Positions 26,864-59,684 of a stretch of DNA of 64,000 nucleotides are shown here, in pieces (the first letter of the stretch is position 1; every line of letters starts with the position of its first letter). Source of the stretch: Blastopirellula retiformator (GTDB lineage: Bacteria; Planctomycetota; Planctomycetia; Pirellulales; Pirellulaceae). Where the stretch lies: NCBI RefSeq assembly GCF_007859755.1, contig NZ_SJPF01000003.1, forward strand, positions 186,001 to 250,000, in the 5' to 3' direction. Below the pieces are notes generated by a model that saw nothing but the letters and a program-made list of their open reading frames with translations, ran no database searches and was not told the DNA's origin. Position numbers and translations under genes: made by a program.

Positions 26864-27012
26864 CTGCCTGTTGAAAAATGCCATCGTGGCATTTTCCAGC
26901 CTCGCCAGGCTCAGAGCGTAGCTCTTCGCGGCTCGCAAAATATCGACTTACGTCGCTATTTTGGGATCGCATCCATGCGATCACGCAGTCCGTCGAGAAA
27001 ATCAACGGACTG
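26864..27012 (+). mobile_element. 149-bp MITE-like element, copy 1
   Basis: Starts CTGCCTGTTGAAAAATGCC and ends GAAAATCAACGGACTG; flanked by a direct CTAG on both sides (26860-26863, 27013-27016). Contains internal stems around TGCCATCGTGGCA and ACGACTTACGTCG and a terminal hairpin CAGTCCGT...ACGGACTG. No coding capacity. Located between convergently oriented non-coding flanks, not on a stop codon. Confidence 0.9.
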
Positions 27013-27037
27013 CTAGGCGTGCCGAAGGGGATCGGCG

Positions 27038-27445
27038 TTAGTTGTCATCCGAGCTAAATCGCTCGGGAAAACGCTGCTCGAGCGCTTCTCGGACCTTCGA
27101 GGTAATATCGGGCAGGCTGACCGGTTTGGCCAGCACCGAGAAGACCTCGGCCGAAATCGCCTGTTGGCGGATGATGTCGTCGAGATTGCCGGAGAGCAGG
27201 ATGCACGGCAGTTGGGAGACGGCGGTGCGGCACTCCACAATCGCTTCGAGGCCTGTTTTCCGCGGCATGTGATAGTCGAACAGCGCTACGTCAATCCGCA
27301 TCGAGCGGACGACGTCGATCGCTTCGACTCCATCTTTGGCGAGATGAGTTTCGAAACCACGAGCCGCGAAGACCTCGGCCAGCGTTTCGCGAAAGCCGCG
27401 GTCATCGTCGGTGATCAACAAGTTCGGGGCGTGAACGATCCCCAT
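27038..27445 (-). CDS. Orphan response regulator (receiver only)
   Basis: 135 residues from the ATG at 27445 with GGAAG upstream; the longer frame adds 55 residues of poor character. CheY-like receiver: ITDDDRG acidic pocket, phosphoacceptor Asp in LFDYHMPRKTG, LLSGN and Lys in VLAKPVS. There is no output domain and no kinase nearby; it lies divergent to the sdh operon. Its partner must be elsewhere. Confidence 0.9.
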   Translation of the reverse strand: MGIVHAPNLLITDDDRGFRETLAEVFAARGFETHLAKDGVEAIDVVRSMRIDVALFDYHMPRKTGLEAIVECRTAVSQLPCILLSGNLDDIIRQQAISAEVFSVLAKPVSLPDITSKVREALEQRFPERFSSDDN

Positions 27446-27880
27446 TGTTTCATCTTCCGCCGCTTTGCGGTTAAAGAGGGTGACGTACTTGCAGGCATCG
27501 TTGTAAGGCTCGACGCCAAAATTCCTATAGAGCAATTTTAATTCCAATTTCGCACAATGCGGCAACGTTTGTAGTAAATCTGGGCCGTATCGAGATTTAG
27601 CGCAATTCACCCCTTTTTCATCGGGCTTTGAGTTGCTGCCGAATTGACAGGCGGTTGCCTAGATTACCACCACCGAAGAAATCGAACGAATTTTGCGTAA
27701 ATGGTTTTGTTGAGGGTACTTCAAAGGACGATTCTGTATGCGGTATAAACAAGAACGCATCGGGCAATGTTGCGTTTTCTTTCGGCCGGTCACGTATCGG
27801 CGGATGTCCGAATTGCGTTCTAAGCCCTTGCTGCTAGGACAGTTAGGGTTGTCGCCGATCGCCGCCAATGAGGGTTGCAG
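27446..27880. other. Divergent intergenic region upstream of sdhC
   Basis: About 435 bases. Both divergent promoters must lie here. It is A/T-rich near 27520-27620 and 27690-27740; no convincing -35/-10 pair or operator palindrome was found. Short ORFs in this stretch were rejected. Confidence 0.5.
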
Positions 27881-28723
27881 GTGAGTAATAAACCCGGTTT
27901 CTGGGCTCGTAATGAATTTTTGATTCGTCGGCTCCACTCGCTGACTGGCCTGGTGCCGGTTGGTGCGTACATGATCGTTCACCTGTTGGTGAACGCTAGC
28001 GTGGCCGCCTCGCCAGAGACGTTCCAGCGGAACGTTTTCTCCATTCACTCGCTGGGGGCTTTATTGCCGCTGGTCGAATGGACGTTCATCTTCCTGCCGA
28101 TCATGTTTCACGCGTTTCTCGGTCTGGCGTTCACCATGGGAGCGTCCCCCAACTACTCCGAGTACCGCTACAACAGCAACTTCCGCTACACGATGCAGCG
28201 AGCGACTGGTCTGCTGGCCTTTGTCTTCATCGCCTGGCACGTGTTCCACATGCATGGCTGGATTCACAATGAAGCTTGGCTCCACCTGATTCAGGGCTGG
28301 GGTGGGATGTTCAAGCCATACAACGCCGCCACGTCGGCCGCCCACGCGATGCAGGCCTCGGTCTTGTACCCGATTCTGTACACGATCGGCGTGCTGGCCT
28401 GCGTGTTCCACCTCTCCAACGGCCTGTTCACGATGGGCATCACTTGGGGTATCTGGATCAGCCCGAAGGCGCAGACCGGCGCCAAGTGCGTGACCAGCAT
28501 CTTTGGTCTGGCCTTAGCCTTGGTCGGCATCACGTCGATCGTCGGACTGTGGACGCTGAAGGACTTCAAAGAGATCCGCGAGAAAGAAAACACCGCGTAC
28601 GAGTTGTTGGTCGAAATCGGCGACATCCCGCCGAGCGAGCACAAACGTGACCTGCCTGCCGAAGAGCTGGACGAAGCCCCTGCCTTCAACGGCCCCGCCC
28701 CGGCGGAAGAGTCAGAAGATTAA
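27881..28723 (+). CDS. sdhC: Succinate dehydrogenase cytochrome b558 subunit
   Basis: 280 residues. Five transmembrane helices with several conserved histidines (RRLHSLTG, HLLVNAS, HAFLGLAF, WHVFHMHGW, FHLSNGLF) that ligate two haems, as in the Bacillus-type quinone-reactive anchor. The start is GTG at 27881 with AGGG six bases upstream; a TTG six bases earlier would overlap that site. The C-terminus extends into an acidic cytosolic tail (LPAEELDEAPAF) longer than in Bacillus. First gene of sdhCAB. Confidence 0.94.
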   Translation: MSNKPGFWARNEFLIRRLHSLTGLVPVGAYMIVHLLVNASVAASPETFQRNVFSIHSLGALLPLVEWTFIFLPIMFHAFLGLAFTMGASPNYSEYRYNSNFRYTMQRATGLLAFVFIAWHVFHMHGWIHNEAWLHLIQGWGGMFKPYNAATSAAHAMQASVLYPILYTIGVLACVFHLSNGLFTMGITWGIWISPKAQTGAKCVTSIFGLALALVGITSIVGLWTLKDFKEIREKENTAYELLVEIGDIPPSEHKRDLPAEELDEAPAFNGPAPAEESED

Positions 28724-28822
28724 TCGGGCGGTCAACCGGCAACTTCGCGCTACGATAACAGTACACAACGCACTCCTGGGCCGAGCGACGATCGACCCCA
28801 CTTGATACGAGGGATACCTGGC

Positions 28823-33531: not shown

Positions 33532-34878
33532 TCAGAGTTTCAAGTACTTCAGCACGTCGTCGTAAGCGCCTCCCTGGTTCGAGAAGACGGCGTAGTTTTT
33601 GGCCGTCGCGAACCATTCCTGCGTCGACGGCTTCACCTTCTTTCGGGCAGCCAGTAGATCGGCGGTCGTAATCGGCAGCGGAATTCCGGTCTTCATCGCT
33701 TCGCTCAATTTCGCTTCGATCGCGATGTCGACGACCGCTTTCAGATCGGCGCCGGAGAAGCCGTCCGCGTTTTTGGCGGCTTGCTTCAGATCGACGTTTT
33801 GTTGCGGTTTGCCCCGCAGTTGAACTTCCAGCACTTCGGCCCGGGCTTCCAGGTCAGGCGGCGGGACGAAGATCAAACGATCAAATCGTCCAGGTCGACG
33901 GAAAGCGGGATCGACGTGCCATGGCGCGTTGGTCGCCGCCAGGATGACGACCCCATCGTTGTTCGACTCGACGCCGTCCAGTTCTGACAGAAACTGGTTG
34001 ATCGTTTGCCGCGACGATCCGCTCGCCATGTCGCTGCGGCGGCCGCCAAGGGCGTCGACCTCATCGAAGAACAGAACGCAGGGAGCGTTGCGGCGGGCTT
34101 GCTCGAAGATCGCGTGCAGGTTGCGTTCGCTTTGCCCGATCCACATGTCGAGCACGTCGTTGATGCCGATCGAGATGAACGAAGCGTTGATCTCGCCGGC
34201 GGTGGCGCGGGCCAGGTAGGTCTTGCCGCAGCCAGGCGGGCCATACATCAAAATGCCGCCGCCTACTTTCTTACCGTACGCGGCGAACATCTCGGCCTGC
34301 TCGAGCGGATAGATCGCCTTCATCCGGATGTCTTCTTTGACGACGCTCATGCCGCCGACGTCGGCGAACTTGATGTTGGGGCGCTCGGGGCGATCGACCT
34401 CGGGAGGCTCGTCAGTCGGGCCGGTCATTTCGCGAACGCGGCCGGCGACGATCGTTTCTTCTTCCTCTTCCCAACCGCCGCTGACGCCCAACGCATCGGC
34501 CAATTGCGGATCGGCGACGCTCTCATCGGCCTCGATCGCTTCCTTGTAGTGAGCGGCCGCCGAGCGATCTTCGCCGGTGGTCAGCAGCAACTTGGCCAAC
34601 AGCACGCGCGTCTCCGGCGGCGCCTCACCGCGCTCGGCCAGCTCTTCCAGGATGACGATCGCATGGCTGGTCTTCGCCGCTTTGACGTAAGACTCGGCCA
34701 GGGCCAGCTTCGCCTCGACGTTGTTAGGGGCGTACGTCAGTGCGGTTTTCAGCTCTTGTTCGCACTCTTGGGTCCGGCCCAAATCGGCCAACGTTCTCGC
34801 TAAGTGGAGACGCAGCGGGATGTTATCGGGCGAGACTTCGAGTGCGGCTTGTAGTGGAGCTACAGGGTCGACGGGCAT
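33532..34878 (-). CDS. TPR-AAA+ ATPase (Cdc48/FtsH-like AAA module)
   Basis: 448 residues from the ATG at 34878. Residues 1-125 are three TPRs; an acidic linker (WEEEEETIVAGR) follows; then one classical AAA module with Walker A GPPGCGKT (213-220), Walker B FFDEVDA (about 269-275), sensor ATNAPW and arginine fingers in RRPGRFD, plus the GxSGADL helix region. There is no protease domain. A single-ring hexameric unfoldase or remodelling enzyme is expected, with TPRs choosing substrates. Neighbouring TPR genes suggest one complex. Confidence 0.92.
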   Translation of the reverse strand: MPVDPVAPLQAALEVSPDNIPLRLHLARTLADLGRTQECEQELKTALTYAPNNVEAKLALAESYVKAAKTSHAIVILEELAERGEAPPETRVLLAKLLLTTGEDRSAAAHYKEAIEADESVADPQLADALGVSGGWEEEEETIVAGRVREMTGPTDEPPEVDRPERPNIKFADVGGMSVVKEDIRMKAIYPLEQAEMFAAYGKKVGGGILMYGPPGCGKTYLARATAGEINASFISIGINDVLDMWIGQSERNLHAIFEQARRNAPCVLFFDEVDALGGRRSDMASGSSRQTINQFLSELDGVESNNDGVVILAATNAPWHVDPAFRRPGRFDRLIFVPPPDLEARAEVLEVQLRGKPQQNVDLKQAAKNADGFSGADLKAVVDIAIEAKLSEAMKTGIPLPITTADLLAARKKVKPSTQEWFATAKNYAVFSNQGGAYDDVLKYLKL

Positions 34879-34955
34879 GCTTACCAATCTCCAGCGGGAG
34901 GAAAGAAGAGTACCAATATAAGGTATCGGATCCCGAAAATGAAACGACTTCCCCC

Positions 34956-34983
34956 TTGACATATCGGAAGATAGCGATATATT
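34956..34983 (+). promoter_or_regulatory. Promoter with operator-like palindrome upstream of rhodanese gene
   Basis: TTGACA (34956-34961) and TATATT (about 34978-34983) are spaced 16 bp. An inverted repeat ATATCG-N8-CGATAT fills the spacer, the geometry of ArsR/BigR-type repressor sites. No ArsR gene is nearby in the window. Confidence 0.65.
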
Positions 34984-35075
34984 TGAATTATCAGGACAGG
35001 GGAGAGGCTGGTAGCGTGCCGGCGTCTTTCGCCTGCCTGTTCAAGCTGAAGTATTCCTCAGAGAAGGAGCGAATC

Positions 35076-35645
35076 ATGTCCGACATTCAAACCATTTCGC
35101 CGGCTCAGTTGGCGGACCGCGAAAAGTCGGGCCAGGCGATCGAGTTGATCGATGTCCGAACCCCGGCCGAGTTCCGCGAGGTCCATGCCTCGGCGGCCCG
35201 TAATACGCCGCTGGAGTCGTTGGACGTCGATAGCGTCGTCAAGTCTCGCCGTCTCGACGCAGGGGAGCCGCTGTACGTGATCTGCCGCAGCGGCAAGCGG
35301 GCCGATCAGGCCTGTCGCAAATTTGTGGCGGCCGGCTACGAAAACGTGGTCAACATCGAAGGGGGAACCAATGCCTGGGAGGCGGCGAATCTGCCGGTCG
35401 AGCGCGGCAAGAAAGCGATGTCGCTGGAGCGTCAGGTCCGGATCGCCGCCGGTTCTCTGGTGCTGCTGGGCGCCGTGCTGGGACTGACGGTCCATCCCTA
35501 CTTTATTGGCATTTCGGCGTTTGTGGGGGCAGGCCTGGTCTTCGCTGGCGCGACCGACACCTGCGGCATGGCGATGATGCTGGCCCGGATGCCCTGGAAC
35601 CAAGTGAAAGACGAGCCGCCCGCCAAGAGCTGCAGCATCGCTTAG
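35076..35645 (+). CDS. Rhodanese with YgaP-type membrane domain
   Basis: 189 residues. Rhodanese domain 1-110 with the persulfide Cys at 70 in VICRSGKRA; then a DUF2892-like pair of transmembrane helices (RIAAGSLVLLGAVLGLTV; YFIGISAFVGAGLVFAG) as in E. coli YgaP, with a Cys-containing loop DTCGM. Moves sulfane sulfur, possibly in sulfide handling. ATG with GAGAAGGAG upstream. The stop TAG coincides with the TTAG target duplication of the MITE that begins at the next base. Confidence 0.92.
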   Translation: MSDIQTISPAQLADREKSGQAIELIDVRTPAEFREVHASAARNTPLESLDVDSVVKSRRLDAGEPLYVICRSGKRADQACRKFVAAGYENVVNIEGGTNAWEAANLPVERGKKAMSLERQVRIAAGSLVLLGAVLGLTVHPYFIGISAFVGAGLVFAGATDTCGMAMMLARMPWNQVKDEPPAKSCSIA

Positions 35646-35794
35646 CTGCCTGTTGAAAAATGCCCTCGTGGCATTTTCCAACCTCGCCAGGCTCAGAGCA
35701 TGGCTCTTCGCGGCTCGCAAAATAACGACTTACGTCGCTATTTTGGGATCGCATCCCTGCGATCCAGCAGCCCGTTGAGAAAATCAACGGACTG
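35646..35794 (+). mobile_element. 149-bp MITE-like element, copy 2 (on stop codon)
   Basis: Same boundaries as copy 1; flanked by TTAG at 35642-35645 and 35795-35798. The left TTAG contains the rhodanese stop TAG, so the gene ends exactly at the element. Confidence 0.92.
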
Positions 35795-41671: not shown

Positions 41672-42295
41672 ATGCCCTTTCCTTTAACTCTTTGGTTGGT
41701 TCATCCCGACCCTGCAACTTGCGAGACGCTTCTCGCTCGTTTTGACGGTTTGCCCGGCGTTTCGGCCCAGGCCTGTCGTTTTGAAAATCTGCCGCCGCAT
41801 GACTGTTTTGTGACCGCGGCCAACTCTTTTGGCATGATGACCGCCGGCATCGACGCCGCGGTAATCGCCTTTCATGGCGAAGCCCTCATGCAGCGAGTCC
41901 AAACTCGTATCCTCGACCAATATCTCGGGGAGCAGCCGATCGGCACGGCGATGGTCGTCGAGACCGAAACGCCTGGCTACCCGTATGTCGTCCATGCCCC
42001 GACGATGCGCGTCCCAGGCTCGATTGAAGGAACCGACAAGGTTTACGCCGCCACGTTCGCCGCGCTCGTCGCAATCTATCGCCACAACGTCGCCAGCGAG
42101 ACCAAGATCGAAACGGTCGCTTTTCCAGCGATGGGCTGCGGTTTCGGCGGAGTCTCTTTCAGCGAAGCGGGGCGGCAAATGGCGGCCGCCTATCGCAATT
42201 ACCTTGAGCCCCCGCATCGTTTTGATTGGGACATGGTAGCGCGGCGACAAAAGCAAATCTGCTACGACGGCTCGCGCCAGGTCGTCCGCGGCTAA
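41672..42295 (+). CDS. Macro-domain protein
   Basis: 207 residues with the macro-domain core: CFVTAANSFGMMTAGIDAAV (the ADP-ribose loop) and AFPAMGCGFGGVSF. It probably binds or hydrolyses an ADP-ribose derivative. The stop TAA lies inside the CTAA that precedes a truncated MITE copy. ATG start. Confidence 0.88.
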   Translation: MPFPLTLWLVHPDPATCETLLARFDGLPGVSAQACRFENLPPHDCFVTAANSFGMMTAGIDAAVIAFHGEALMQRVQTRILDQYLGEQPIGTAMVVETETPGYPYVVHAPTMRVPGSIEGTDKVYAATFAALVAIYRHNVASETKIETVAFPAMGCGFGGVSFSEAGRQMAAAYRNYLEPPHRFDWDMVARRQKQICYDGSRQVVRG

Positions 42296-42403
42296 CTGCC
42301 TGTTGAAAAATGCCCTCATGGCATTTTCCAACCTCGCCAGGCTCAGAGCATCGCTCTTCGCGGCTCGCAAAATAACGACTTACGTCGCTATTTTGGGATC
42401 GCA
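42296..42403 (+). mobile_element. MITE-like element, copy 3, truncated at its right end
   Basis: Matches copies 1 and 2 from CTGCCTGTTGAAAAATGCC to GGGATCGCA and then diverges; the right ~41 bp are missing. Left flank CTAA contains the stop of the macro-domain gene. What follows (42404-42540) is an unrelated foldback sequence. Confidence 0.85.
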
Positions 42404-42554
42404 CGCTTCGCCTTCCAGGCATTTTCTTGAGATCGCTTCTCACGGGTGGCTTTGCGCCGCTGCCGCTCGCGTACTCGCAGCGATTGCCCTTGGCAGTCGG
42501 CGATCTCGCTGCGCCTGGAAAACGCCTGCAAGCATCAATTGGAAGAAACGAGAA
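42404..42554. repeat. Foldback sequence abutting the truncated MITE
   Basis: TTCCAGGC...GAGATCGC (42413-42436) is mirrored by GCGATCTC...GCCTGGAA (42500-42520) as an imperfect inverted repeat. It may be a further element whose arrival removed the right end of the MITE; it also forms the leader of the next gene. Confidence 0.55.
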
Positions 42555-43000: not shown

Positions 43001-43149
43001 CTGCCTGTTGAATAATGCCATCGTGGCATTTTTCAACCTCGCCAGGCTCAGAGCATAGCTCTTCGCGGCTCGCAAAATAACGACTTACGTCGTTATTTTG
43101 CGAGCGCATCCGTGCGATCACGCAGTCCGTTGAGAAAATCAACGGACTG
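43001..43149 (+). mobile_element. 149-bp MITE-like element, copy 4
   Basis: Full length, flanked by CTAT (42997-43000 and 43150-43153). Lies in the leader of the ECF sigma gene, not at a stop codon. Some bases in the central stem differ from the other copies (TTGAATAATGCC, CGTTATTTTGCGAGC). Confidence 0.9.
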
Positions 43150-43968: not shown

Positions 43969-45606
43969 GTGACTCCCGAAGACTATCAACTTGTTTGCGA
44001 GGCGTTTGACGAGGTCAGCCAATTGCCTGCTTCGGAACGCGACGCTCACCTGGCGGCGCGGTTTGCGCAGCGCGACGACTTGCGCAAGCAGGTCGCGGCG
44101 ATGCTGGCGCAGGATGACGACAGCCGGCTTGATCGTTCGCCGCTGGAAGCGGCGCTGACCGCCGAGAGTCCGACGATCGCGATTCACGACACGGTCGACG
44201 TTTCCCCTCCCCTGCCCGCTTCGATTCAGATCGACGGCTACGAAGTCGAAGCGGAAATTGCTCGCGGCGGCATGGGAGTCGTCTATCGGGCTCGCCAGCA
44301 ACATCCCAATCGAACCGTCGCGCTGAAGATGATCTTGGCCGGGCAATTCGCTTCGCCCGACGAGGTCGCTCGCTTTCGGATCGAGGCCGAAGCGGCCGCC
44401 AACCTCAACCACCCCGGCATCGTACCGATCTACGAGGTCGGCAGTCACGCCGGGCGTCATTACTTTTCAATGGGCTACGTCGCTGGCAAAAGCCTGGCGG
44501 TCGCGCTGAAGACCGAGACCTTTACCTTCGACCAAGCGGCCGACCTGGTGCGGCAAATCGCCGAGGCGATCGAGTACGCTCATCAGCATGGGGTGATTCA
44601 TCGTGATCTGAAACCTTCCAATGTGTTGCTCGACGCCGAAGGGCGCCCTCAGGTGACCGACTTTGGCCTGGCCAAGCGGGTCGATGACGAGTCGCACCTG
44701 ACCTGCACCGGCCAAGTGATGGGAAGCCCCGGCTACATGGCGCCGGAGCAAGCGTCGGGCCGCGTCGGTCAAATCGGCGCCGCGACCGACGTCTACGGGC
44801 TGGGCGCCATCCTGTACGCGCTGCTGACTGGCAAACCCCCTTTTGAAAGCGGCAGCATCCTGGAAGCGATCGACCTGGTTTGTACCGCCGATGTGACGCC
44901 GCCGCGCAAGCTCAACTGGCAAATCCCGCGGAAGCTGGAAACAATCTGCTTGAAGTGCCTGCACAAAACGCCGGGCGCTCGCTACAAAAGCGCAGCCGAG
45001 TTGGCGGCCGACCTGCGGGCTTTTCTCAGTAACGAACCGATCCAGGCCCGACCCCTTTCGCTGTTGGAACGCGTAATTTTTTGGGCCCGGCGACGACCCG
45101 GTTTGGCGATCACCTGGGCGGCGATGCTGTTGTTTTACGCTTATCATTTGTTTTGCGTCTGGGTGGTGCGCGATCCCGTATCGGTGCAGCCGCTGTTTCA
45201 GCTGATCTCGATCGCGACCGCCCTCGGTTACGCAGTAGGCGCATGGTTTTTCCAGCGTATGTACGAGCGTCCCAGTACGCGGACCACGGCGATCTATGCC
45301 TGGATGACGATGAACGTGGCGTTGCTGACGATGTTGTTGTTTTCAGCCAACGGCGCATCGAGTCCCCTCGTGTTGGGATATGTCTTGTTAGTGGCGGCCA
45401 GCGGTGCGCTCTATCAAACGGGATTGGTTGGTTACGTCACCACGATCTCGCTGATCGGCTACTACCTGCATGTGTTGTTTGCGGTGCTCTACCCGAAGGA
45501 TCCGCCGCTCGACATTCATTGGACGATCTGTCTGACGCTGTCGATCTTGTTACTCGGCATGATCCAATACTTTGTCGTGCGCAAGATCCGCATGGCCAAC
45601 GCATAA
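43969..45606 (+). CDS. Membrane-anchored Ser/Thr protein kinase
   Basis: 545 residues, GTG start. An N-terminal acidic helical part (1-85) precedes a Hanks-type kinase domain (about 85-350): GGMGVVYRA, VALKMI, catalytic HRDLKPSNVLL, DFGLAK and APEQASG. The C-terminal 190 residues form about six transmembrane helices (LAITWAAMLLFYAYHLF, LISIATALGYAVGAWFF, etc.) instead of the usual sensor domain. With the adjacent ECF sigma gene it forms a likely signalling pair. The stop TAA lies in the ATAA duplication of a MITE. Confidence 0.94.
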   Translation: MTPEDYQLVCEAFDEVSQLPASERDAHLAARFAQRDDLRKQVAAMLAQDDDSRLDRSPLEAALTAESPTIAIHDTVDVSPPLPASIQIDGYEVEAEIARGGMGVVYRARQQHPNRTVALKMILAGQFASPDEVARFRIEAEAAANLNHPGIVPIYEVGSHAGRHYFSMGYVAGKSLAVALKTETFTFDQAADLVRQIAEAIEYAHQHGVIHRDLKPSNVLLDAEGRPQVTDFGLAKRVDDESHLTCTGQVMGSPGYMAPEQASGRVGQIGAATDVYGLGAILYALLTGKPPFESGSILEAIDLVCTADVTPPRKLNWQIPRKLETICLKCLHKTPGARYKSAAELAADLRAFLSNEPIQARPLSLLERVIFWARRRPGLAITWAAMLLFYAYHLFCVWVVRDPVSVQPLFQLISIATALGYAVGAWFFQRMYERPSTRTTAIYAWMTMNVALLTMLLFSANGASSPLVLGYVLLVAASGALYQTGLVGYVTTISLIGYYLHVLFAVLYPKDPPLDIHWTICLTLSILLLGMIQYFVVRKIRMANA

Positions 45607-45755
45607 CTGCCTGTTGAAAAATGCCCTCGTGGCATTTTCCAACCTCGCCAGGCTCAGAGCATAGCTCTTCGCGGCTCGCAAAATAACGACTTACGTCGCT
45701 ATTTTGGGATCGCATCCCTGCGATCCAGCAGCCCGTTGAGAAAATCAACGGACTG
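45607..45755 (+). mobile_element. 149-bp MITE-like element, copy 5 (on stop codon)
   Basis: Full length, flanked by ATAA (45603-45606, 45756-45759). The left ATAA contains the kinase stop TAA. Confidence 0.92.
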
Positions 45756-45966
45756 ATAAGCGCCGATGCGCTGCTGCGCGGCGCGCAAGCATAATCGGTA
45801 TCAACGGCGCGAAAGACGTCGCGCGGCGAAATCTGGCGAAACCGCGGAACCAATTTCTGTTTCCCGATTTTCGCGGGGTCGATAAAATACTCCGGAAGTC
45901 GTGACGGAGCGCCCCATCCCTGACCGGCTCCTCCTTCCCCATGTCTTGATTAGGAGCGCCCTCCCC

Positions 45967-47226
45967 ATGCAAAACGTTCTCTCCGTCATCCTCGCCGGCG
46001 GAAAAGGGTCGCGATTGGAACCGCTGACGCGGGATCGCGCCAAGCCGGCGGTGCCGTTCGGCGGCGTTTATCGCATCATCGATTTCGCGCTTTCCAACTG
46101 TTTGAACAGCGGGCTGCGGCACATCCAACTGCTGACGCAATACAAAGGGCAAAGCCTCGATCGGCATGTGAACGTCGGCTGGCAGCGCTACTTCTGCCGC
46201 GAACTGGGCGAGTTCATCGACGTCATTCCGCCGCAACAACGGATCGACGAGCAGTGGTATCAAGGAACCGCCGACGCCGTCTATCAAAACATCTACGCGA
46301 TGGAGAAGCATCGTCCCGACTACGTCATGATTTTGGCAGGCGACCACATCTACAAGATGAACTACGCCAAAATGATCGACTATCACATCGACAATGGCGC
46401 CGACCTGACGATTGGCGCGTTGCCGGTTTCGCCCGAAGAGGCGAAGGCGTTCGGCGTGATGCAGGTCGATACCGATCAGCGGGTCGTCGGCTTTGAAGAG
46501 AAATCGCCTACCCCCAAAACGATCCCCGGCGATCCCGATCGCTGCCTGGCGTCGATGGGCATTTACGTCTTCAACGCCCACTTCCTGTTCGAGCAGCTCT
46601 GCCAAGACGCAACGCGTCGCGACAGCGCGCATGACTTCGGCAAGAACATCATTCCGTCGATCATCGACTCGCAGCGGGTCTTCGCCTTCCCGTTCCGGGA
46701 CGAAAATCGCAAGCAAGACGCCTACTGGCGAGACGTAGGTACGCTGGACGCTTACTTTGAAGCGAACATGGACTTGGTTCACGTCGATCCGCTGCTCAAC
46801 TTGTACGATCAAGATTGGCCGCTCCGTACGTACCAGCCGAACGTGCCGCCGCCGAAGTTCGTCTTTGCCGGCAGTGCCGACGAAGGGCGTCGCGGTTGTG
46901 CGCTCGACAGCATCGTCTGCGGCGGCTCGATCATCTCGGGCGGCGAAGTCGAGCGGAGCATCCTCGGCCCCGAAGTGCGGGTTAACAGCTTCTGCCATGT
47001 CGAAGACTCGATCCTGTTTGAAGGGGTCAACATCGGCCGGCACAGTCGCATCCGCCGGGCGATCATCGACAAGGGCGTTCATATTCCCCCAGGCACCGAA
47101 ATCGGTTTCGACCTCGAACTCGACCGCCGCCGCGGCTTCACCGTCAGCTCTGGCGGCGTGGTCGTGATCGCCAAAGGAGACGCCGTCGAAAGCATGGTCC
47201 GAGCCGAACAGGAACAGGTCGCCTAG
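45967..47226 (+). CDS. glgC: Glucose-1-phosphate adenylyltransferase
   Basis: 419 residues from the ATG at 45967 (an upstream frame adds 22 unrelated residues). Nucleotidyltransferase core VILAGGKGSRLEPLTRDRA, substrate motifs GTADAVYQN and FGKNIIPS, and a left-handed beta-helix C-terminal domain (GPEVRVNSFCHVEDSI, GVNIGRHSRIRRAI). Makes ADP-glucose for glycogen. No other glg gene is near. The stop TAG lies inside the CTAG duplication of a collapsed MITE remnant. Confidence 0.96.
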   Translation: MQNVLSVILAGGKGSRLEPLTRDRAKPAVPFGGVYRIIDFALSNCLNSGLRHIQLLTQYKGQSLDRHVNVGWQRYFCRELGEFIDVIPPQQRIDEQWYQGTADAVYQNIYAMEKHRPDYVMILAGDHIYKMNYAKMIDYHIDNGADLTIGALPVSPEEAKAFGVMQVDTDQRVVGFEEKSPTPKTIPGDPDRCLASMGIYVFNAHFLFEQLCQDATRRDSAHDFGKNIIPSIIDSQRVFAFPFRDENRKQDAYWRDVGTLDAYFEANMDLVHVDPLLNLYDQDWPLRTYQPNVPPPKFVFAGSADEGRRGCALDSIVCGGSIISGGEVERSILGPEVRVNSFCHVEDSILFEGVNIGRHSRIRRAIIDKGVHIPPGTEIGFDLELDRRRGFTVSSGGVVVIAKGDAVESMVRAEQEQVA

Positions 47227-47253
47227 TGGTCCGTTGATTTTCTCAACAGGCAG
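47227..47253 (-). mobile_element. 27-bp remnant of the MITE-like element
   Basis: On the minus strand it reads CTGCCTGTTGAGAAAATCAA then CGGACCA: only the two ends of the 149-bp element, fused through the GTTGA(A/G)AAA shared by both, still flanked by CTAG (47223-47226, 47254-47257). It is inserted at the glgC stop. Confidence 0.8.
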
Positions 47254-48388
47254 CTAGACCGACTTGCAGTTCATTACCACCAGGGCGACGAAACTCCCTC
47301 CTCGTCGCCATAAGGAATAGACGCCATTGTGCGTCTATTCTTTTTTCGAAACGATGTCTTCGTAGGGTCCGCTGTGCGGACCACGAATCGCAAGCCGATG
47401 GAATGCGGATGCCAGCGCACGCCAAGGCAACGCAGCGCCGATGAGTCACGAAAACTGGACCGCCGGGTTTCGTTTTTTTCTTCCGGGGTAGGGTGCGTCG
47501 AGACGCACCGAGAACCTGCCATTCCGCTCAGCAATTCCCTCGCGTGGCAACGCAAACCTCTGGGGCCGTTGCGTTTCCACGCGTTGGTGCAGTCGAGCGA
47601 TCGCGCAGGTTCGTGGTGCGTCCAGACGCACCCTACCGGACTGGACCGCCGGGTTTCGTTTTTTTCTTCCGGGGTAGGGTGCGTCGAGACGCACCGAGAA
47701 CCTGCCAATCCGCTCAGCAATTCCCTCGCGTGGCAACGCAAACCTCTGGGGCCGTTGCGTTTCCACGCGTTGGTGCAATCGAGCGATCGCGCAGGTTCGT
47801 GGTGCGTCCAGACGCACCCTACTGAACTGGACCGCTTGATTCGTTTTTCTTGTCCGGTTCCCAATTCGAAAAATGACAACGTACCAAGAACGACCGATGA
47901 TCCTCGCGTGGGTCTGCAGCTTGGGTTCATCCCGCTGCGTCGCCGCGCTGGTTCTTGGGGTTGGTCCTTGGGCGCTCCGCGCGAAATGGGGCTCAGTTGC
48001 GAGTGATCAAGGTTCGCTACTGGGTCGCAAAACGAGCGGTTGTTCGCTGGGACCTGGAGGTTGAAATGGAGATCACGGCACGCTCCTACGTGCCGGGAAG
48101 ATGGCAGGCGCTCGTCGCAAGCGACGTCTGGTAACGCCTGGACATATTTATACCAAAAGTGGGGTGTATTTGGCAAGGCGATTTTCGTCTAGTGCGGGCG
48201 TTATTCCACGTCCTGCGCAGCGGTTTCTTTGCGGTATGCAAAGTGATGGTAGCTAGCTCCGCTATTTGTCGCGCCATGACTTTTTCGGCGATCGCGTCCC
48301 CTTTTTGTTTGCTGGACTCACCCCCGCTGGCCGCATACATTGATTGGTGCGCGAACCGTTGGACCTTCTTTTCTCGAGGCAAGTTTCT
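47254..48388. other. Repeat-rich intergenic region after glgC
   Basis: About 1.1 kb without a supported gene. 47350-47470: short palindromes (GGTCCGCTGTGCGGACC). 47461-47858: tandem 186-bp repeat (listed separately). 47860-48388: no clear feature; ORFs here follow repeat sequence or lack protein character. Confidence 0.6.
47461..47858. repeat. 186-bp tandem repeat, two units plus a partial third
   Basis: Two nearly identical units begin at 47461 and 47647; a partial third begins at 47833 with the same period. Each contains TAGGGTGCGTCGAGACGCACC near its start and GGTGCGTCCAGACGCACCCTA near its end, both palindromic. Confidence 0.88.
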
Positions 48389-48562
48389 ATGCATGCTGCC
48401 GCTTTGCTCATGTGCGAGATCGTGGCCGGCGCCGATGTCCGGGAGTCGATCGCAACTCCCCAGGCCATGTCCGATCTGCTGACCAGCGAGCTGGCGATTC
48501 CGGCCGCCGACTATTTTTCTGCACGGCCTGCCGTGGTCGTCACCAAGGAGAAAGCTCAATGA
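48389..48562 (+). CDS. Internally deleted member of the tandem exported family
   Basis: 57 residues. It joins the family N-terminus (ALLMCEIVAGADVRESIATP, compare the gene at 49354) directly to the family C-terminus (LLTSELAIPAADYFSA), skipping about 200 middle residues in frame. Its TGA overlaps the ATG of the next member (ATGA). It may be a relic, or a functional short form kept in frame. Identity rests on these two blocks and position. Confidence 0.6.
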   Translation: MHAAALLMCEIVAGADVRESIATPQAMSDLLTSELAIPAADYFSARPAVVVTKEKAQ

Positions 48563-49353
48563 ACGCGTTCGCTTTGATCTTATGCAGCGTCGTCGCAGGC
48601 GCCGATCCAGCCGTTTCGATCACCAGTCCGCAGCAGGTATTTGACCTGCAGAGCCGGCTTTATCAGTTGGACAAGTCGCCCCATTTCGTGGTCTCCGAAG
48701 ATCGCACGTTGTTGCAAACTCCCTTGATGGGTTACGAGTATCCGGCCAACCCGCGCACGACCTGGAAGTTTGATGGGAAGTACGACCTGCGCATCGTTCC
48801 CTGTCCCGATACGCCCGGCTGTTTTCTGGCGGGGTTCGTGCAGCGAGAATCGCCGGTCGAGTCGCAGGAAGTGAACGAAAATGGTTTCGGCAGTCAAGAG
48901 GGTTTCGGAAGGCGGTCGCGAGCCATGGGGCACCAGCGCGATCATCATTTTGCGATCTACGTCGATGCCGCCAACAACATCTTGCTCGACCTAGAGCGAA
49001 ACAATTTGATCTCGCACCTGACCGACGAAGAGGTCGGAACGGTAAAAGCGAACCTGGCGAAGATCGCCCAGCCGTACGTCGACCAACTGAAGGACAATCC
49101 GCAAGATCCTTTCATCGCTTCTTACATCACGTCGCTACAGGACGAATTTATCGTTACTCCCCCGGTCGAGATCGAGTGCGACTTGATTCCGCTGCCCGAT
49201 AGTGGGCCGAAGCTGAAAATGAGTTTTCGCCTGACGGCCGGAGAGCGCAAGGTGGGGATCGGCAAACACTATTACATCGCCAACCTGCTAACGACCAGGC
49301 TGGCGATTCCGGCCAGTCGCTACTTCGCCGCCGAAACCCAGGAGGAGAAATAG
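48559..49353 (+). CDS. Tandem exported-protein family, member 1
   Basis: 264 residues. Short hydrophobic N-terminus FALILCSVVAGA that could be a minimal signal sequence, then the family blocks: YDLRIVPCPDTPGCFLAGFV, an IYVDAANNILLDLE strand, QDEFIVTPPVEIE and the C-terminal LLTTRLAIPASRYFAA. The middle insert (SQEGFGRRSRAMGHQRDHH) is unique. Starts at the ATGA overlap with the short gene upstream, so translation is probably coupled. No known domain recognised. Confidence 0.82.
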   Translation: MNAFALILCSVVAGADPAVSITSPQQVFDLQSRLYQLDKSPHFVVSEDRTLLQTPLMGYEYPANPRTTWKFDGKYDLRIVPCPDTPGCFLAGFVQRESPVESQEVNENGFGSQEGFGRRSRAMGHQRDHHFAIYVDAANNILLDLERNNLISHLTDEEVGTVKANLAKIAQPYVDQLKDNPQDPFIASYITSLQDEFIVTPPVEIECDLIPLPDSGPKLKMSFRLTAGERKVGIGKHYYIANLLTTRLAIPASRYFAAETQEEK

Positions 49354-50160
49354 ATGAACGCCATCGCTTTGGTACTGTGCAGCGTGATCGCCGGGGCGGA
49401 TGCTCGGGAGACGATTCCGAGTGTGAAGTCGCTCTCGGCGCTGATTAATCGGTGCTATGAAATTGACAAGATTGGGGATGTCGAGTTGGTTGACGATGGC
49501 GCCTGGTTGCAAGCGACCGGCGCGTTCAACAGTCGCGAGCTTCCCTTCGGCACGCGAGTCGCCGGTTATCGCCAGGCGCTGCTGATCGACAAATATCAGT
49601 TGTGCGTGATCCCCTGCGCCGAGCAGCCCTGCACGTTCTTGGCGGGTTACGTCCGGTTTGACGACGAGAAAAATCAATCGAAGCAGCAATTGGCGGAGAT
49701 CCATCGCCTGAGCGTGAGAACCGCGTTTTGCGTGCTGGTCGACGTCGATCAAAACGTGGTAGTCAAACTGGATGATCGGAATGCCCAGTTGTATCTGGAC
49801 GACGCTCGCCACGAGGCGCTTTCATCAGGCATGAACGCCATCTGGGACGCATACTTGCTGCAGATCGAATCGCAGACCGAGGGAGCGCCGTTCGTTTCCG
49901 AATATGGCGCCTTCCGAAATCAGTTCGTCACCCCGCCGCCGATCAAGGGGATCGCCCAGGCCCGGTTCACCCGCCGCAGTCGCAATGGCAGTGACGAGCG
50001 ATTCACCGGCGTCTTCGTCAGCGTCACGTTTGCGGCCGACGGCTGCGAAGCGACGCACAGTGAGACGATTGACATGTGCAAACTACTTAGAACGTCGCTG
50101 GCGATTCCCGCCACGCAATATTTCGCCGCAGCTACGAACATCGAAAAGGAAGTCCCATGA
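49354..50160 (+). CDS. Tandem exported-protein family, member 2
   Basis: 268 residues, ATG immediately after the previous TAG. Family blocks: IALVLCSVIAGADARETIPS, YQLCVIPCAEQPCTFLAGYV, CVLVDVDQNVVVKLDD, FRNQFVTPPPI and LLRTSLAIPATQYFAA. Two extra Cys in the PCAEQPC turn. Coupled by ATGA to member 3. Confidence 0.85.
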   Translation: MNAIALVLCSVIAGADARETIPSVKSLSALINRCYEIDKIGDVELVDDGAWLQATGAFNSRELPFGTRVAGYRQALLIDKYQLCVIPCAEQPCTFLAGYVRFDDEKNQSKQQLAEIHRLSVRTAFCVLVDVDQNVVVKLDDRNAQLYLDDARHEALSSGMNAIWDAYLLQIESQTEGAPFVSEYGAFRNQFVTPPPIKGIAQARFTRRSRNGSDERFTGVFVSVTFAADGCEATHSETIDMCKLLRTSLAIPATQYFAAATNIEKEVP

Positions 50161-51020
50161 ACGTCACGGCTTTGATACTCTGTACGGTTGCCTTAGGCGC
50201 GGACGCCCGGGAGACGATTCCGACATCGCAGAAGTTGTTTGAGGTGATCGACAATACGTATTTGATCAGCAAGCGGCGGCCGCTGGAGATTTCCGAGGAC
50301 GGCACGACCCTGCAGCCGGCGGTCAGCAAGGTTAGCGCCAACGCCGGCGGCGACGAGCGGCCTCCCTATCTGCTGCATCATCATTCGGACGCCAGCAACT
50401 ACATCAGCGGCAAGTATGCGTTGAAGGTGGTCGCCTGTCCCGGCTTTCCCAATTTTCTGGTGGCGGGCTACGTCATTGAGAACCCCCGTACGTTAATCGC
50501 CACCTTTCCGGGGCAGCCGTCGTCCAAGGTTTTGCATCACTGTTATTGCGTGCTGATCGATACCGATCGCAACATTGTGGTCCCGCTCGACGATCCACGG
50601 ATGCCGCTTTATTTGAACCAACAGCAAATCGACGACGTACAAACCGGGTGTCAGTTGATCTGGTATGACTATCTGAGGAAGATCGACCAGCAAGAGCCGG
50701 ACGCGCCGTTCTACGAATTTTATTGGCTCTTCCGTCGCCAGTTCGTCACGCTGCCGCAACTGGAACTGGAAGGGATGGTTTACTTTAAACCCCCGTCATC
50801 AGACTCAAAGAGTTATCCCAGCGCGCAGGAAAAATCGAAGCCGCCAACGGCTGGTATGAAAGCAATGCTGCAGATCTCGGCCGATGGTCGCGTCATTGTC
50901 TACGAAGGAGAGTTCGAGATGCAGCGATTCCTGTCGACGACAATCGCCGAGCCGGCTGCGGCCTACTTCGCCAAACCGGCGATCGCGGAAGCGACTGAGC
51001 CGACCGTCAGCGTCGAGTAG
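50157..51020 (+). CDS. Tandem exported-protein family, member 3
   Basis: 287 residues. TALILCTVALGADARETIPT at the start, YALKVVACPGFPNFLVAGYV, CVLIDTDRNIVVPLDD, FRRQFVTLPQLE and FLSTTIAEPAAAYFAKP. A Ser/Pro/Lys-rich insert (SSDSKSYPSAQEKSKPP) interrupts the last third. Begins with ATGA overlap. Confidence 0.85.
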   Translation: MNVTALILCTVALGADARETIPTSQKLFEVIDNTYLISKRRPLEISEDGTTLQPAVSKVSANAGGDERPPYLLHHHSDASNYISGKYALKVVACPGFPNFLVAGYVIENPRTLIATFPGQPSSKVLHHCYCVLIDTDRNIVVPLDDPRMPLYLNQQQIDDVQTGCQLIWYDYLRKIDQQEPDAPFYEFYWLFRRQFVTLPQLELEGMVYFKPPSSDSKSYPSAQEKSKPPTAGMKAMLQISADGRVIVYEGEFEMQRFLSTTIAEPAAAYFAKPAIAEATEPTVSVE

Positions 51021-51058
51021 CTCTCGCTCGCAACAAGTAATTTGGAAAAGGATGTCGC

Positions 51059-51922
51059 ATGAATGCTGTCGCTGTGGTTGTTTGCATGTTCGCGCTGGCG
51101 GGGGACGCCAAGGAGACGATTCCCCACACGCGGGACTTGTTTAACGTGATCGACAACACTTACTCGATCCGTAACATCCAGCAGATCGAAGTCTCTGCGG
51201 ATGGGACGACGCTACAGACGTTGACCGTCGAAGAGGAGAAGCAGGATGCGCCGCCAACCAAGAAAGTAGTGCGGGTCAAGGTGCGATCCGACGGGCAAAA
51301 GAGTTTTGAAATTCTGGGCGAGTATCGGTTAAGGGTGGTCGCCATCCCAGAGGCGTCCCATCTGCTGTTGGCCGGTTTCGAGTCGACCTCCAAAGATCCT
51401 TATTACGGCAAGAGTGAACATCTGCTCCGTTACTGCTTTTGCGTCTTGATCGATACCGATCGGAACATCGTCGTCCCGCTGGATGACCCGAAGCAACGAC
51501 TCTTCCTGGAAAAGGAGCAGGTCGAAGAAGTCCACGCGATTTGTGAAGGGATTTGGAGCTACTATCTGGACCGCATCGCCGAGCAAGAAAGTGACGCTCC
51601 ATTCTATTCCGAGTTTCAAGCGTTTCGAGGGCAGTTCGTCAAACTACCGCCGTTCGAAACCAAAGTGAAGGTCGCGTTTTTTGCCGATCTCGAGTCAGGC
51701 GAAGCGATTGGCGTGCCGCAGGAGGTATCCACCTGGCGTTGCGTCGCCGGAATGGCTGTTCGCGTGGAGATCGCCGCCGAAGGGCGAAAGAACGTCTTCG
51801 GCGGGCAGATCGAAATGCAACCGTTGCTGTCGACCACGATCGCAAAGCCGGCCGAGGAGTATTTTCCACAACCGAAATACGTGAGTCCCATCACGACCCA
51901 GAGACTGCCGTCGCCGCGTTAG
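51059..51922 (+). CDS. Tandem exported-protein family, member 4
   Basis: 287 residues, 38 bp after member 3 with GGAAAAGGA upstream. AVVVCMFALAGDAKETIPH, YRLRVVAIPEASHLLLAGFE (the CP of other members is changed), FCVLIDTDRNIVVPLDD, FRGQFVKLPPFE and LLSTTIAKPAEEYFPQP. Closest to member 3, including VIDNTY near the N-terminus, so the two are the latest duplication. Confidence 0.85.
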   Translation: MNAVAVVVCMFALAGDAKETIPHTRDLFNVIDNTYSIRNIQQIEVSADGTTLQTLTVEEEKQDAPPTKKVVRVKVRSDGQKSFEILGEYRLRVVAIPEASHLLLAGFESTSKDPYYGKSEHLLRYCFCVLIDTDRNIVVPLDDPKQRLFLEKEQVEEVHAICEGIWSYYLDRIAEQESDAPFYSEFQAFRGQFVKLPPFETKVKVAFFADLESGEAIGVPQEVSTWRCVAGMAVRVEIAAEGRKNVFGGQIEMQPLLSTTIAKPAEEYFPQPKYVSPITTQRLPSPR

Positions 51923-55881: not shown

Positions 55882-55905
55882 GTTTGGCTGGTCCCAGAAC
55901 GAAAA

Positions 55906-55935: not shown

Positions 55936-55997
55936 GCATTTTACAGTTTCAGAAACGTCCGGCTGTCTTAGCGAACAGGCGGTGGCGTTTCGGCAGC

Positions 55998-56258
55998 TTA
56001 GTTGGCTTCGACGGCGGCCGGCACGATATTGATGCGGCGACCCTTTTGATCGAACAGGACCGAACCGTCGCACAGGGCGAACAGCGTGTAGTCCTTGCCG
56101 CAGCCGACGTTCTTGCCAGGGCGGAATTTGGTGCCGAGTTGGCGAACCAGAATGTTGCCGGCGCGAACCACTTCGCCGCCGTACTTCTTCACGCCGCGAT
56201 ACTGCGGATTCGAGTCACGACCGTTGCGGCTCGAACCTTGACCTTTCTTATGGGCCAT
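55998..56258 (-). CDS. rpmA: 50S ribosomal protein L27
   Basis: 86 residues. Canonical L27: the N-terminal [21 protein letters not shown] and the [15 protein letters not shown] strand. The N-terminus begins directly with MAHKKGQG, so no cleavable leader. rplU (L21), usually just upstream, is not in the window: the gene ahead is a secreted protein. Confidence 0.97.
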
Positions 56259-56372
56259 ATCACCTAACTCCTGAATCTATGGGATTTCCGCTGCAGCAAT
56301 GCAATCGGCTGCCGGCGAGAATGAGCGTTTTACCTACTATCGACACGCGCGAGGCGGGTCGAAACTCTCTTT

Positions 56373-57383: not shown

Positions 57384-57568
57384 GCTGGTAATTCCAGGCG
57401 AGACAGAAGCAAGATCGAGCAGTACTGGACGAGCCGGGCTGCAAAATGAGCGCAACCCGAGCCTTTAAGTATACTTGCCTAAATTGCCAAGGGTCAAGTT
57501 TCTGAGCAATTCGGCCGGAAAAGGAGGATTGGGACGACACTTTACGCCCACAAGAGGGGGCGATTCTA

Positions 57569-57602
57569 GGGTGCCGTTGCCACGTCTGCGTGGCAATGAA
57601 TG
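57569..57602. repeat. Repeat family D, copy 1
   Basis: 34-bp GGGTGCCGTTGCCACGTCTG then CGTGGCAATGAATG, with a 20-bp palindrome core; identical to 61662-61695. Confidence 0.8.
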
Positions 57603-57681
57603 GGTTTTCCAGATTTTCTCGCCCGTTGAATTGCCGTTGTGCTCGGCGAGCTTGGCACACGTGAGAGATCGATCGCTTCGT

Positions 57682-58326
57682 CTAACCCCACTCCACCATC
57701 GTCCGCCACCGTCCATCTTTCTGGGCGAACGAAGCGAGCAGCGCCACGATTTCGTCCAGCGACTGCGGCGCTTGGGAAGTGACATACTCTTTGCCGCCGA
57801 TCTTGCAGCGCGCTGACAGACCATCTTCCGGCTTCAAACTGCCAGAACCTTCCAGCCAATGATTGTCGTTGAGCTGAGCGACGAAAAAGGTGAGCTGATC
57901 CCACGGCTGCTGGTGAACGTGCGCGTCGATTTCTTCCGGCGTCGGATTGACGTCCAGCACTCTCGGTTCGTAGTCAGGCCCTTCCAGAAGGACCAGCGTC
58001 ACCGCAGCGCCACGAAGTTCGCTGGGTATATCCGCAGTCAGAATCGCTTCCTCAGCGCGGATGAAGGTGGCCAGCGGCGGCGGATCGCCATCTTTGTCAA
58101 ACCGCAGCCAGTAGAGCAAGTTGCGATAGTCGTGCCGCGCTTCTTCGACCAGACGCTCGACGGTGCGCAGGTCGCGGGCGGCCAACTGCACGATCGCCGC
58201 ATGCACGCGATCGACCTCGCCATGAGCCGGGTCGGTTCCGTATTGCTCGAGCAAGTAGATCGCCGACTCGGCCTGGGGGCCGAACTGGGCGTGGACGAGT
58301 TCCTGGATGTCGTTGCTGACAGGCAT
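57682..58326 (-). CDS. Hypothetical helical protein
   Basis: 214 residues. N-terminal helices (DIQELVHAQFGPQAESAIYLL, ERLVEEARHDYRNLLYWLR) and a C-terminal beta-rich half ending ASFAQKDGRWRTMVEWG. There is no signal peptide or membrane segment. Not recognised; codon use and length support a real gene. ATG start. Confidence 0.65.
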   Translation of the reverse strand: MPVSNDIQELVHAQFGPQAESAIYLLEQYGTDPAHGEVDRVHAAIVQLAARDLRTVERLVEEARHDYRNLLYWLRFDKDGDPPPLATFIRAEEAILTADIPSELRGAAVTLVLLEGPDYEPRVLDVNPTPEEIDAHVHQQPWDQLTFFVAQLNDNHWLEGSGSLKPEDGLSARCKIGGKEYVTSQAPQSLDEIVALLASFAQKDGRWRTMVEWG

Positions 58327-58476
58327 GATGGCGCTTGGGCGAGTTTGTTGCGGTTTATCTTAGCCCCTTTCGGCGACGCATGCGCCCTCCTGGTTGTTGT
58401 CGATGGTACCGCATTTCTTCGGCGCTTGAATCGGGCTACGATAACGCGAGTTGACCTTACCCCGAAGGAGCTGGTG

Positions 58477-59412
58477 ATGACCGAAATGTTGCAGGCTCAA
58501 TACGAAGCCGTAGTCGTCGGCGGAGGCCCGGCCGGTTTGAGTGCGGCGTTGGTGCTGGGCCGGGCATGTCGCAGAGTGCTGCTGATTGACGCAGGCGAAG
58601 GTCGCAATGCGCCGGCCGACGCGGCGCATGGTTTTTTGACCCAAGACGGCACGCCCCCCAGCGAGATCCGCCGGATTGGCCGCGCGCAGTTGGCCTCGTA
58701 TGACGTTACGGTCAAAGAGGGCCGCGTGACCGCCGCCAAGACGGTGGATGGTCGTTTTGAAGTCGAATTCGCCGGACAACGCGTCGCCTGTCGTTCTTTG
58801 ATCCTGGCGACCGGCATCGCCGATCGTCTGCCGCCGATCCCTGGGGCGAAACAGTGGTGGGGCCGCGGCATCGTCGTTTGTCCCTATTGCCACGGCTGGG
58901 AAATTCGCGATCGACCTTGGGCCTTTCTCGCTCCGGCGGAACAGGTGATCGAGCGGGCGACCATGTTGCTCGGCTGGACGAAACAGCTCACCTATTTGAC
59001 AAGCGGCGACGTGAGTCTGCCTGCGGAAGTTGCAAAGTGGCTGACCGCGCATGACGTTGCGATTCGCGAAGAGGCGATCTCCGGTTTCGAAGGGGAAGGG
59101 GAAACACTCACCGGCGTCGCTTTGGCCGGCGGCGAGCAACTGTCGCTGGCGGCGGTATTCGTCTCGCCCCAGTTCTCGCAGACGACGCCGCTGGCCGAGT
59201 CGTTGGGACTATCGCTGGAAACGGAAGGTCACCAGGCCGGCACGATCAGAACCGAACCGCACGGGGTAACGTCGGTCGAGGGTTTGTTCATCGCCGGCGA
59301 CGCGGCGTCGTGGGGCGTCATGAGCGTCGCGTCAGCCGCCTCCGAAGGAATGATGGCGGCGGTCTTTGCGAACATGCGAATGCTGAAACAGGACGCGGAT
59401 GCCAGTGAATGA
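58477..59412 (+). CDS. TrxB-like NAD(P)/FAD oxidoreductase with CPYC
   Basis: 311 residues. FAD site AVVVGGGPAGLSAALVL, redox motif CPYC at 135-138 (TrxB has CxxC around 136) followed by HGWE, and C-terminal GLFIAGDAASWGV. The NADPH site GxGxxA is replaced by LAPAEQ, so cofactor use may differ. ATG with GAAGGAG upstream (58477). The last codons (ADASE-stop) match the family B repeat and the CaCA gene end. Confidence 0.9.
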   Translation: MTEMLQAQYEAVVVGGGPAGLSAALVLGRACRRVLLIDAGEGRNAPADAAHGFLTQDGTPPSEIRRIGRAQLASYDVTVKEGRVTAAKTVDGRFEVEFAGQRVACRSLILATGIADRLPPIPGAKQWWGRGIVVCPYCHGWEIRDRPWAFLAPAEQVIERATMLLGWTKQLTYLTSGDVSLPAEVAKWLTAHDVAIREEAISGFEGEGETLTGVALAGGEQLSLAAVFVSPQFSQTTPLAESLGLSLETEGHQAGTIRTEPHGVTSVEGLFIAGDAASWGVMSVASAASEGMMAAVFANMRMLKQDADASE

Positions 59413-59684
59413 CGAATGTCCAAATCCGAATGTCTAATGAAAAAGAAGAGCTTTCTCCGGCATTAGACATTAGCAGTCCGTTGATTTTCTCGACGGACTG
59501 CGTGATCGCACGGATGCGCTCCCAAAATAACGACTTACGTCGTTATTTTGGGAGCCGCGAAGAGCTATGCTCTGAGCCTGGCGAGGTTGGAAAATGCCAC
59601 GAGGGAATTTTTCAACAGGCAGTTAGTGATTCGTCATTAGACATTTTCCCACCGCATTGCCTCGGTCGCACTACGGGCTCGATT
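59395..59684. repeat. Repeat family B, copy 5, interrupted by a MITE
   Basis: Left part ATGACGAATGTCCAAATCCG...CATTAGACATT and right part GTGATTCGTCATTAGACATT...CCGCATTGCCTCGG...CACTACGGGC belong to family B; the 149-bp MITE (59474-59622) lies between them, with TTAG at both junctions. Confidence 0.8.
59474..59622 (-). mobile_element. 149-bp MITE-like element, copy 6, inside a family B repeat
   Basis: Full length, reverse orientation, flanked by TTAG (59470-59473 and 59623-59626). One stem arm has a base change (GAGGGAATTTTTCAAC). Its presence inside an older repeat shows it is the later insertion. Confidence 0.92.

Follow-up and report, generated by a model that had tools for sequence, protein, structure and literature searches.

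A 149-bp MITE family with a five-hairpin interior in Blastopirellula retiformator, and a likely IS1182-like mobiliser

We analyzed a stretch of 64,000 nucleotides of the Blastopirellula retiformator genome (hereafter, the window; genome G000, contig C3, positions 186001 to 250000, in an assembly of 6.20 Mb and ten contigs) that carries several copies of a 149-bp repeat resembling a miniature inverted-repeat transposable element (MITE). The sequence relatives of the window belong to Pirellulales, and a locus of Blastopirellula marina DSM 3645 aligns to it at 75 to 80% DNA identity. A preliminary description had listed five full copies with identical 4-bp flanks, a truncated copy, and a collapsed one. 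All of these were recovered as claimed, with exact flanks on both sides of every full copy, and are given here in window coordinates together with the hairpins of one copy.

26864 to 27012, + strand: full 149-bp copy, CTAG duplication
35646 to 35794, + strand: full copy, TTAG duplication; the TAG of the left duplication terminates the open reading frame (ORF) at 34740 to 35645 (+)
42296 to 42432, + strand: truncated copy, matching model positions 1 to 135; the left flank CTAA terminates the ORF at 41672 to 42295 (+)
43001 to 43149, + strand: full copy, CTAT duplication, with a lengthened stem at hairpin 3
43007 to 43037, + strand: hairpin 1 of the 43001 copy, containing the palindrome TGCCATCGTGGCA
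43068 to 43105, + strand: hairpin 3 of the 43001 copy
43123 to 43149, + strand: hairpin 5 of the 43001 copy, which is its right end (arms of 11 bp, loop of 5 bases)
45607 to 45755, + strand: full copy with the same sequence as the first query; ATAA duplication, of which the TAA terminates the ORF at 43969 to 45606 (+)
47227 to 47253, − strand: 27-bp fused-end hairpin remnant between CTAG and CTAG; the TAG of the left flank terminates the ORF at 45901 to 47226 (+)
59474 to 59622, − strand: full copy, TTAG duplication on the + strand (CTAA in the orientation of the element), with hairpin 3 enlarged to a longer palindrome

The terminal inverted repeats are imperfect over 11 bp in these copies; in relatives, both ends resemble CAGYCYGTTGA more closely. 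The 3' end, CAGTCCGTTGAGAAAATCAACGGACTG, itself forms a hairpin in which the end sequence is present twice. In the remnant at 47227, the two ends of the element are fused, the left end CTGCCTGTTGA being joined to GAAAATCAACGGACCA.

Searching the whole genome for the right end with up to 2 mismatches returned 322 matches, 159 forward and 163 reverse, while the reversed control pattern gave 0 and 0. Copies were called by profile search in a 2.44-Mb sample (C3 from 1 to 1,050,000, the whole of C2, C1 from 1 to 200,000, and C4 from 1 to 100,000), where 123 had both ends and 24 more were partial, the latter counted above 35 bits. Of the 123, 102 measure 149 bp and 11 measure 115 bp; the shorter form is without hairpin 3 and is flanked by exact duplications in 7 of its 11 cases. 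The preliminary description had named unmatched flanks at most other sites as the outcome that would speak against transposition; the two flanking 4-mers are identical in 91 of the 123 copies and differ at one position in 21, at two in 6, and at three in 5. When the right flanks were shuffled among the copies in 1,000 deals, exact matches averaged 21.5 and never exceeded 35. The exact duplications read CTAG (28), CTAA (21), TTAG (18), CTAT (9), TTAA (8), CTAC (3), ATAA (2), CTTA (1), and CCAG (1), so that the YTAR consensus expected in that description covers 75 of 91. The bases immediately outside both duplications agree in 33 of the 123 copies. Some copies with unlike flanks are 98 to 99% identical to the query, and unlike flanks seem more frequent than the divergence of the copies suggests. 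In addition, one orthologous place could be compared between species: in the sister species of the same genus (G001), the place is occupied by a divergent copy flanked by CTAT and CTGC, and B. retiformator has a single CTAG there, an empty site. The repeat is thus short, present in many copies, devoid of coding capacity, bounded by inverted repeats, and flanked by 4-bp duplications apparently made by transposition, as had been claimed. No match was found in the plasmid and phage collections searched.

These flanks also bear on a different kind of repeat. The element has hairpin ends, and its termini supply stop codons, as has been reported for GTAG repetitive extragenic palindromic (REP) sequences (PMC3733652). 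These features liken it to REPs and bacterial interspersed mosaic elements (BIMEs), and a single-strand HUH transposase (RAYT/TIRYT) that leaves no true target duplication could have moved it as a REP-like repeat. However, the agreement of the flanks far exceeds that of the shuffled deals, the empty site holds a single CTAG, and insertion sequences (ISs) of the DDE type, described below, bear the same ends; those ends read CTGCC/CAGTC and come with duplications, whereas REPs and REPINs have a GTAG or CGTC tag and no duplication. We consider a REP-like origin very improbable.

The four genomes of the genus were searched with an end pattern designed not to match the sequence that follows the ends in the MITE itself, which led to an IS in G001. 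This element is 1472 bp long, has the ends CAGCCCGTTGAAAAA with CTAG on both sides, and contains a transposase frame of 374 amino acids with DUF772 (PF05598) and DDE_Tnp_1 (PF01609) domains. ISs with both MITE-type ends and exact duplications (CTAG, TTAG, CTAG, and CTAG) are present in G001, G224, G033, and G116, with lengths of 1472 to 1540 bp, and a deleted IS of 1069 bp in G025 retains both ends and a CTAG duplication; all five genomes belong to Pirellulales. An autonomous partner with the same ends therefore exists among relatives, as the preliminary description had anticipated. Its family is another matter. YTAR target duplications characterize the IS5 subgroup of the IS5 family, to which that description had assigned the transposase, and the partner shares with this subgroup both the duplication and the two domains. 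Nevertheless, the single open frames of G224 (485 amino acids) and G033 (506 amino acids) match IS1182 (NF033551) best among the NCBIfam models, scoring 185 and 196 bits where the cut-off is 270, while the best IS5 model (IS5_4) gives 93 and 100 bits where it is 140. The partner is thus likely IS1182-like rather than a member of the IS5 subgroup.

To follow this transposase among relatives, the G001 protein was searched against 38 genomes, 23 with and 15 without the MITE. Strong relatives, with E below 1e-20, were found in 8 of the 23 and in none of the 15 (Fisher p 0.013); when the query's own genome was left aside, the count was 7 of 22 (p 0.028). Two further MITE-bearing genomes gave weak matches only, at 26 to 30% identity. 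In B. retiformator itself, the relative at C1:769768 (L049, one of 23 PF01609 matches) adjoins an IS3-family transposase gene; it retains the 3' end and CTAG, has no 5' end, and starts at query residue 62. A second place, C6:13055, holds a short fragment. Self-comparison of the 2.44-Mb sample (repeats of 600 to 6000 bp at 85% identity or more) detected no multicopy IS with MITE ends, and searches of the same sample for orphan ends returned MITE pieces, fused ends, IS4-family insertions, and a few chance matches only. Since the one sizeable IS copy of this genome is without the N-terminal part of the transposase, the family may now be stranded, or nearly so, in this strain.

Taken together, the same-ended ISs, the duplications, and the empty site point to an IS1182-like transposase as the likely mover of the MITE. 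An IS sharing the outer CAGYCYGTTGA and a few more bases would supply, in trans, a DDE transposase of IS1182/IS5 type; this enzyme would make a staggered cut at a 4-bp YTAR-like site and join the element there, leaving the 4 bp duplicated. That the repeat is a real MITE family, a nonautonomous DNA transposon mobilized in this way, is an explanation in which we place considerable confidence. Several observations weigh against it. The sample covers 39% of the genome, and 32 of its 123 copies have no exact duplication, which seems many given their low divergence. One empty site is readable, and its occupied counterpart in G001 has unlike, decayed flanks. On the side of the enzyme, the transposase frame has only 374 amino acids in G001 and is broken into two in G116, compared with 485 and 506 in G224 and G033, and the protein scores under the curated cut-offs of all IS family models. 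No strong relative is present in 15 of the 23 MITE-bearing genomes, where loss or another enzyme must be assumed, and the comparison with MITE-free genomes, which were hand-picked, is uncorrected for kinship.

Other transposase types were considered as partners. PF13546 (IS701 type) has no match in the B. retiformator genome, and PF13701 has one, whose neighborhood (L270, the same place as L048) is without MITE-type ends. The Pfam search for DDE_Tnp_1 detected IS4-family genes within apparent units of 1709 bp that start and end exactly as the MITE does and are flanked by YTAR duplications, as would be expected if the MITE had arisen by deletion from an autonomous IS4-family element. The transposase does belong to that family (NF033592, 217 bits against a cut-off of 115). 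Yet the core has inverted ends of its own, ATACYGTTCGGCACGCC, and measures 1547 bp in 4 of its 9 places (L122 to L130), being shorter or longer, partly masked, elsewhere. In 7 of the 9, it lies in the first hairpin of the MITE at the palindrome TGCCMTCGTGGCA, in both orientations and in MITE copies of different subtypes; of the other two places, one is bordered by MITE sequence on a single side and the other is outside MITEs, in another repeat. The window copy at 43001 contains the corresponding palindrome in its hairpin 1. Target duplications of about 10 to 13 bp are typical of the IS4 family; here, the 13-bp palindrome is duplicated on both sides of the core, and among the 7 copies bordered by MITE sequence at either end, the two duplicates carry the same variant base in 6. 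Descent of the MITE from this element is refuted, and its transposase was dropped as the MITE's parent, since it is inserted into the MITE. The IS4-family element is a nested parasite that uses MITE hairpin 1 as its landing site. In this, it recalls the ISs reported to use palindromic REPs as landing sites (PMC1525189), the difference being that the site here is a MITE hairpin.

The remnant at 47227 belongs to a wider class. At least 12 elements of 26 to 27 bp, consisting of two end sequences around a 4- to 5-base loop, are present in the 2.44-Mb sample, and 8 of these 12 have exact duplications; a further one, at C2:726812 between CCAG and CTAG, is outside this count. A strict pattern with TA fixed on both sides matched 14 places genome-wide, 7 of them with exact duplications. 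The left end reads CTGCCT in 4 of the 12, which would fit deletion between repeats common to both ends, and CAGTCC, CAGCCC, or CAGCCT in the other 8, which look like the right-end hairpin alone. Slippage involving one or a few bases could have produced the latter, as could independent movement of the hairpin. By analogy, IS1272 suggests a third origin: inverted-repeat-replacing transposition at stem-loop targets has been described for it (PMC5678879), and the fused-end hairpins at YTAR sites recall these targets. No duplications are reported for newly inserted IS1272, in contrast to the 4-bp duplications observed here.

We next consider the interior. Similarity between the MITE and the ISs is largely limited to the outer 10 to 17 bp; other matches are short, with E of 0.048 or worse, and one stretch of 10 to 12 bp (MITE positions ~63 to 74) recurs in two of the ISs. 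An order-wide search of 396 genomes, which scored two candidates per genome and so gives no copy numbers outside B. retiformator, found a match at E of 0.001 or better in 23 genomes from eight families; a few are partial, the weakest being that in G268 (57 bases). At 11 of the 28 relative loci read in detail, the 4-bp flanks are exact duplications. From 17 of these loci and one B. retiformator copy, we aligned 18 near-full sequences, one per genome and from eight families, with no structural guidance. Left out were further copies from genomes already used (L114, L258, L244, L261, L260, L259, and L262), truncated or partial copies (L251, L119, and L120), and L248, whose 3' end is short. Beyond the ends, the interior is unrelated to that of the partner IS, and the five-hairpin layout, which is old, recurs in several families of one order.

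Such conservation could mean that the repeat acts in its own right as a structured module of RNA or single-strand DNA, perhaps as a 3' untranslated region element or terminator for the genes upstream of it. Transposition would then have spread the module, and its covariation would reflect selection on the fold. In the alignment, double changes occur at 25 of 55 pairs, in 73 cells, compared with a mean of 22.9 in shuffles and at most 15 with slid partners, although the structure that was counted had been drawn from the B. retiformator copy, which favors it over its slid versions. The number of further pair types was the sole covariation measure reached by shuffles (61 of 500). At pair 16-29, the alignment has UA, CG, AU, and GC. 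RNAalifold predicted 37 pairs, 13 of them with double changes, and two copies, folded on either strand, had z-scores between −6.4 and −10.7. In gaps between tandem genes, moreover, 48 copies lie in the sense of the genes and 17 against it (p 1.5e-4). On the other hand, a match is present in only 23 of the 396 genomes, a search of Rfam returned no family at the gathering score, and a terminator scan of the 43001 copy found no site inside it and one across its right edge. The preliminary description had proposed that a conserved RNA at syntenic places would argue against a mobile element; the fold is indeed conserved between genomes, but the sole comparable pair of sites is not syntenic, being occupied in G001 and empty here.

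The B. retiformator copies themselves offer another source of covariation. Among 111 copies compared, the bases immediately flanking hairpin 3 read GGCTCGC / GGGATCG in 78. In 18, among them the window copies at 43001 and 59474, one arm reads as a copy of the other, and this occurs in both directions: the left arm has become GGCTCCC in 8, both arms read GGCTCCC / GGGAGCG in 4, and the right arm has become GCGAGCG in 4 and GCGATCG in 2. These 18 may share ancestry and are not a count of events. The remaining 15 copies have other, mostly single changes outside hairpin 3. Template switching is reported to yield compensatory pairs in a single event (PMC8794818). Palindrome correction by template switching accounts for at least part of the covariation, and because it makes compensatory pairs by itself, covariation is not proof of RNA function. 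We regard an independent functional module as unlikely, while giving it real weight. In our preferred reading of the repeat as a transposon, self-templated correction of palindromes, possibly together with selection on source copies, would maintain the five-hairpin interior throughout the order.

A bolder picture is of an order-wide lineage of hairpin-chain MITEs independent of any one IS. Several IS1182-like transposases would recognize short ends only, and the interior, fixed in length, would be kept by a function in RNA or single-strand DNA together with self-correction; the right-end hairpin, with its end sequence present twice, might move alone as a 27-bp unit and leave 27-mers in YTAR duplications. 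This we find distinctly doubtful. A 43-bp hairpin at C3:862203, GAGCCTGTTGAAAAATGCC..., resembles MITE hairpin 1 and has other flanks.

As in the window, the duplication often contains the stop codon of a neighboring gene: with a simple gene finder, an in-frame stop lay within it in 50 of 123 copies. Of 73 exact YTAR duplications outside genes, 35 are at stops, compared with 18.8% of YTAR sites there (p 1.6e-8). By gap type, the excess reaches significance between tandem genes, at 24 of 41 versus 21.4% of YTAR sites in the same type of gap, and not significant in convergent gaps, at 11 of 20 versus 37.5% (p 0.11). This difference weakens the idea of a special specificity for stop codons and suggests that selection may explain the excess. 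YTAR can hold TAA or TAG, and insertion at a stop codon would duplicate the stop and do little harm, so that insertions might accumulate there. The target motif, together with selection against insertions before genes, would explain most of the excess; it leaves the orientation bias in tandem gaps without an account. Stop codons of 1837 genes called in the 2.44-Mb sample are TAG in 756, TAA in 759, and TGA in 322, TAG being as common as TAA.

MITEAba12 and the QMITEs are reportedly among the named bacterial MITEs. The element resembles bacterial MITEs, as reviewed (PMC10969869), in being short and noncoding, with inverted ends, duplications, many copies, stable folds, and intergenic positions; it differs from them in an interior unrelated to the partner IS beyond ~10 to 17 bp at the ends and in its five-hairpin layout, which varies little in length and recurs in eight families of one order. 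In the open-license literature on Blastopirellula or planctomycete MITEs and Pirellulales repeats, no earlier description of the element stood in the titles and abstract openings among the matches listed. A large planctomycete repeat family is here tied to a likely mobilizer, and a nested parasite uses its hairpin as a landing site. With hundreds of copies in one genome and source lineages in eight families, the element also offers a natural system for separating two causes of apparent RNA covariation, selection and template-switch correction. Should its interior have a function, the 3' ends of many genes would be supplied by a mobile structured element.

Other repeats were noted in the course of this work. 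A second interspersed repeat, distinct from the MITE and reading TAGCCCGC...GCGAGGGAATGCG...GAATGACGAATGTC, occurs at window positions 25053, 43771, 52749, and 60895 and at neighboring places, with some copies inverted. A 186-bp tandem duplication, 98% identical, spans window positions 47454 to 47825. Repeats of ~766 bp with the ends GAAAAGGTGTCAGGACTC are present at C3:117, C1:3054, C2:269781, C2:272806, C2:274476, and C4:3376; these are reminiscent of IS200/IS605-like units. Finally, a tandem gene family is suggested by five related stretches within window positions 48389 to 51125, of which three lie at the starts of ORFs (49354, 50157, and 51059).

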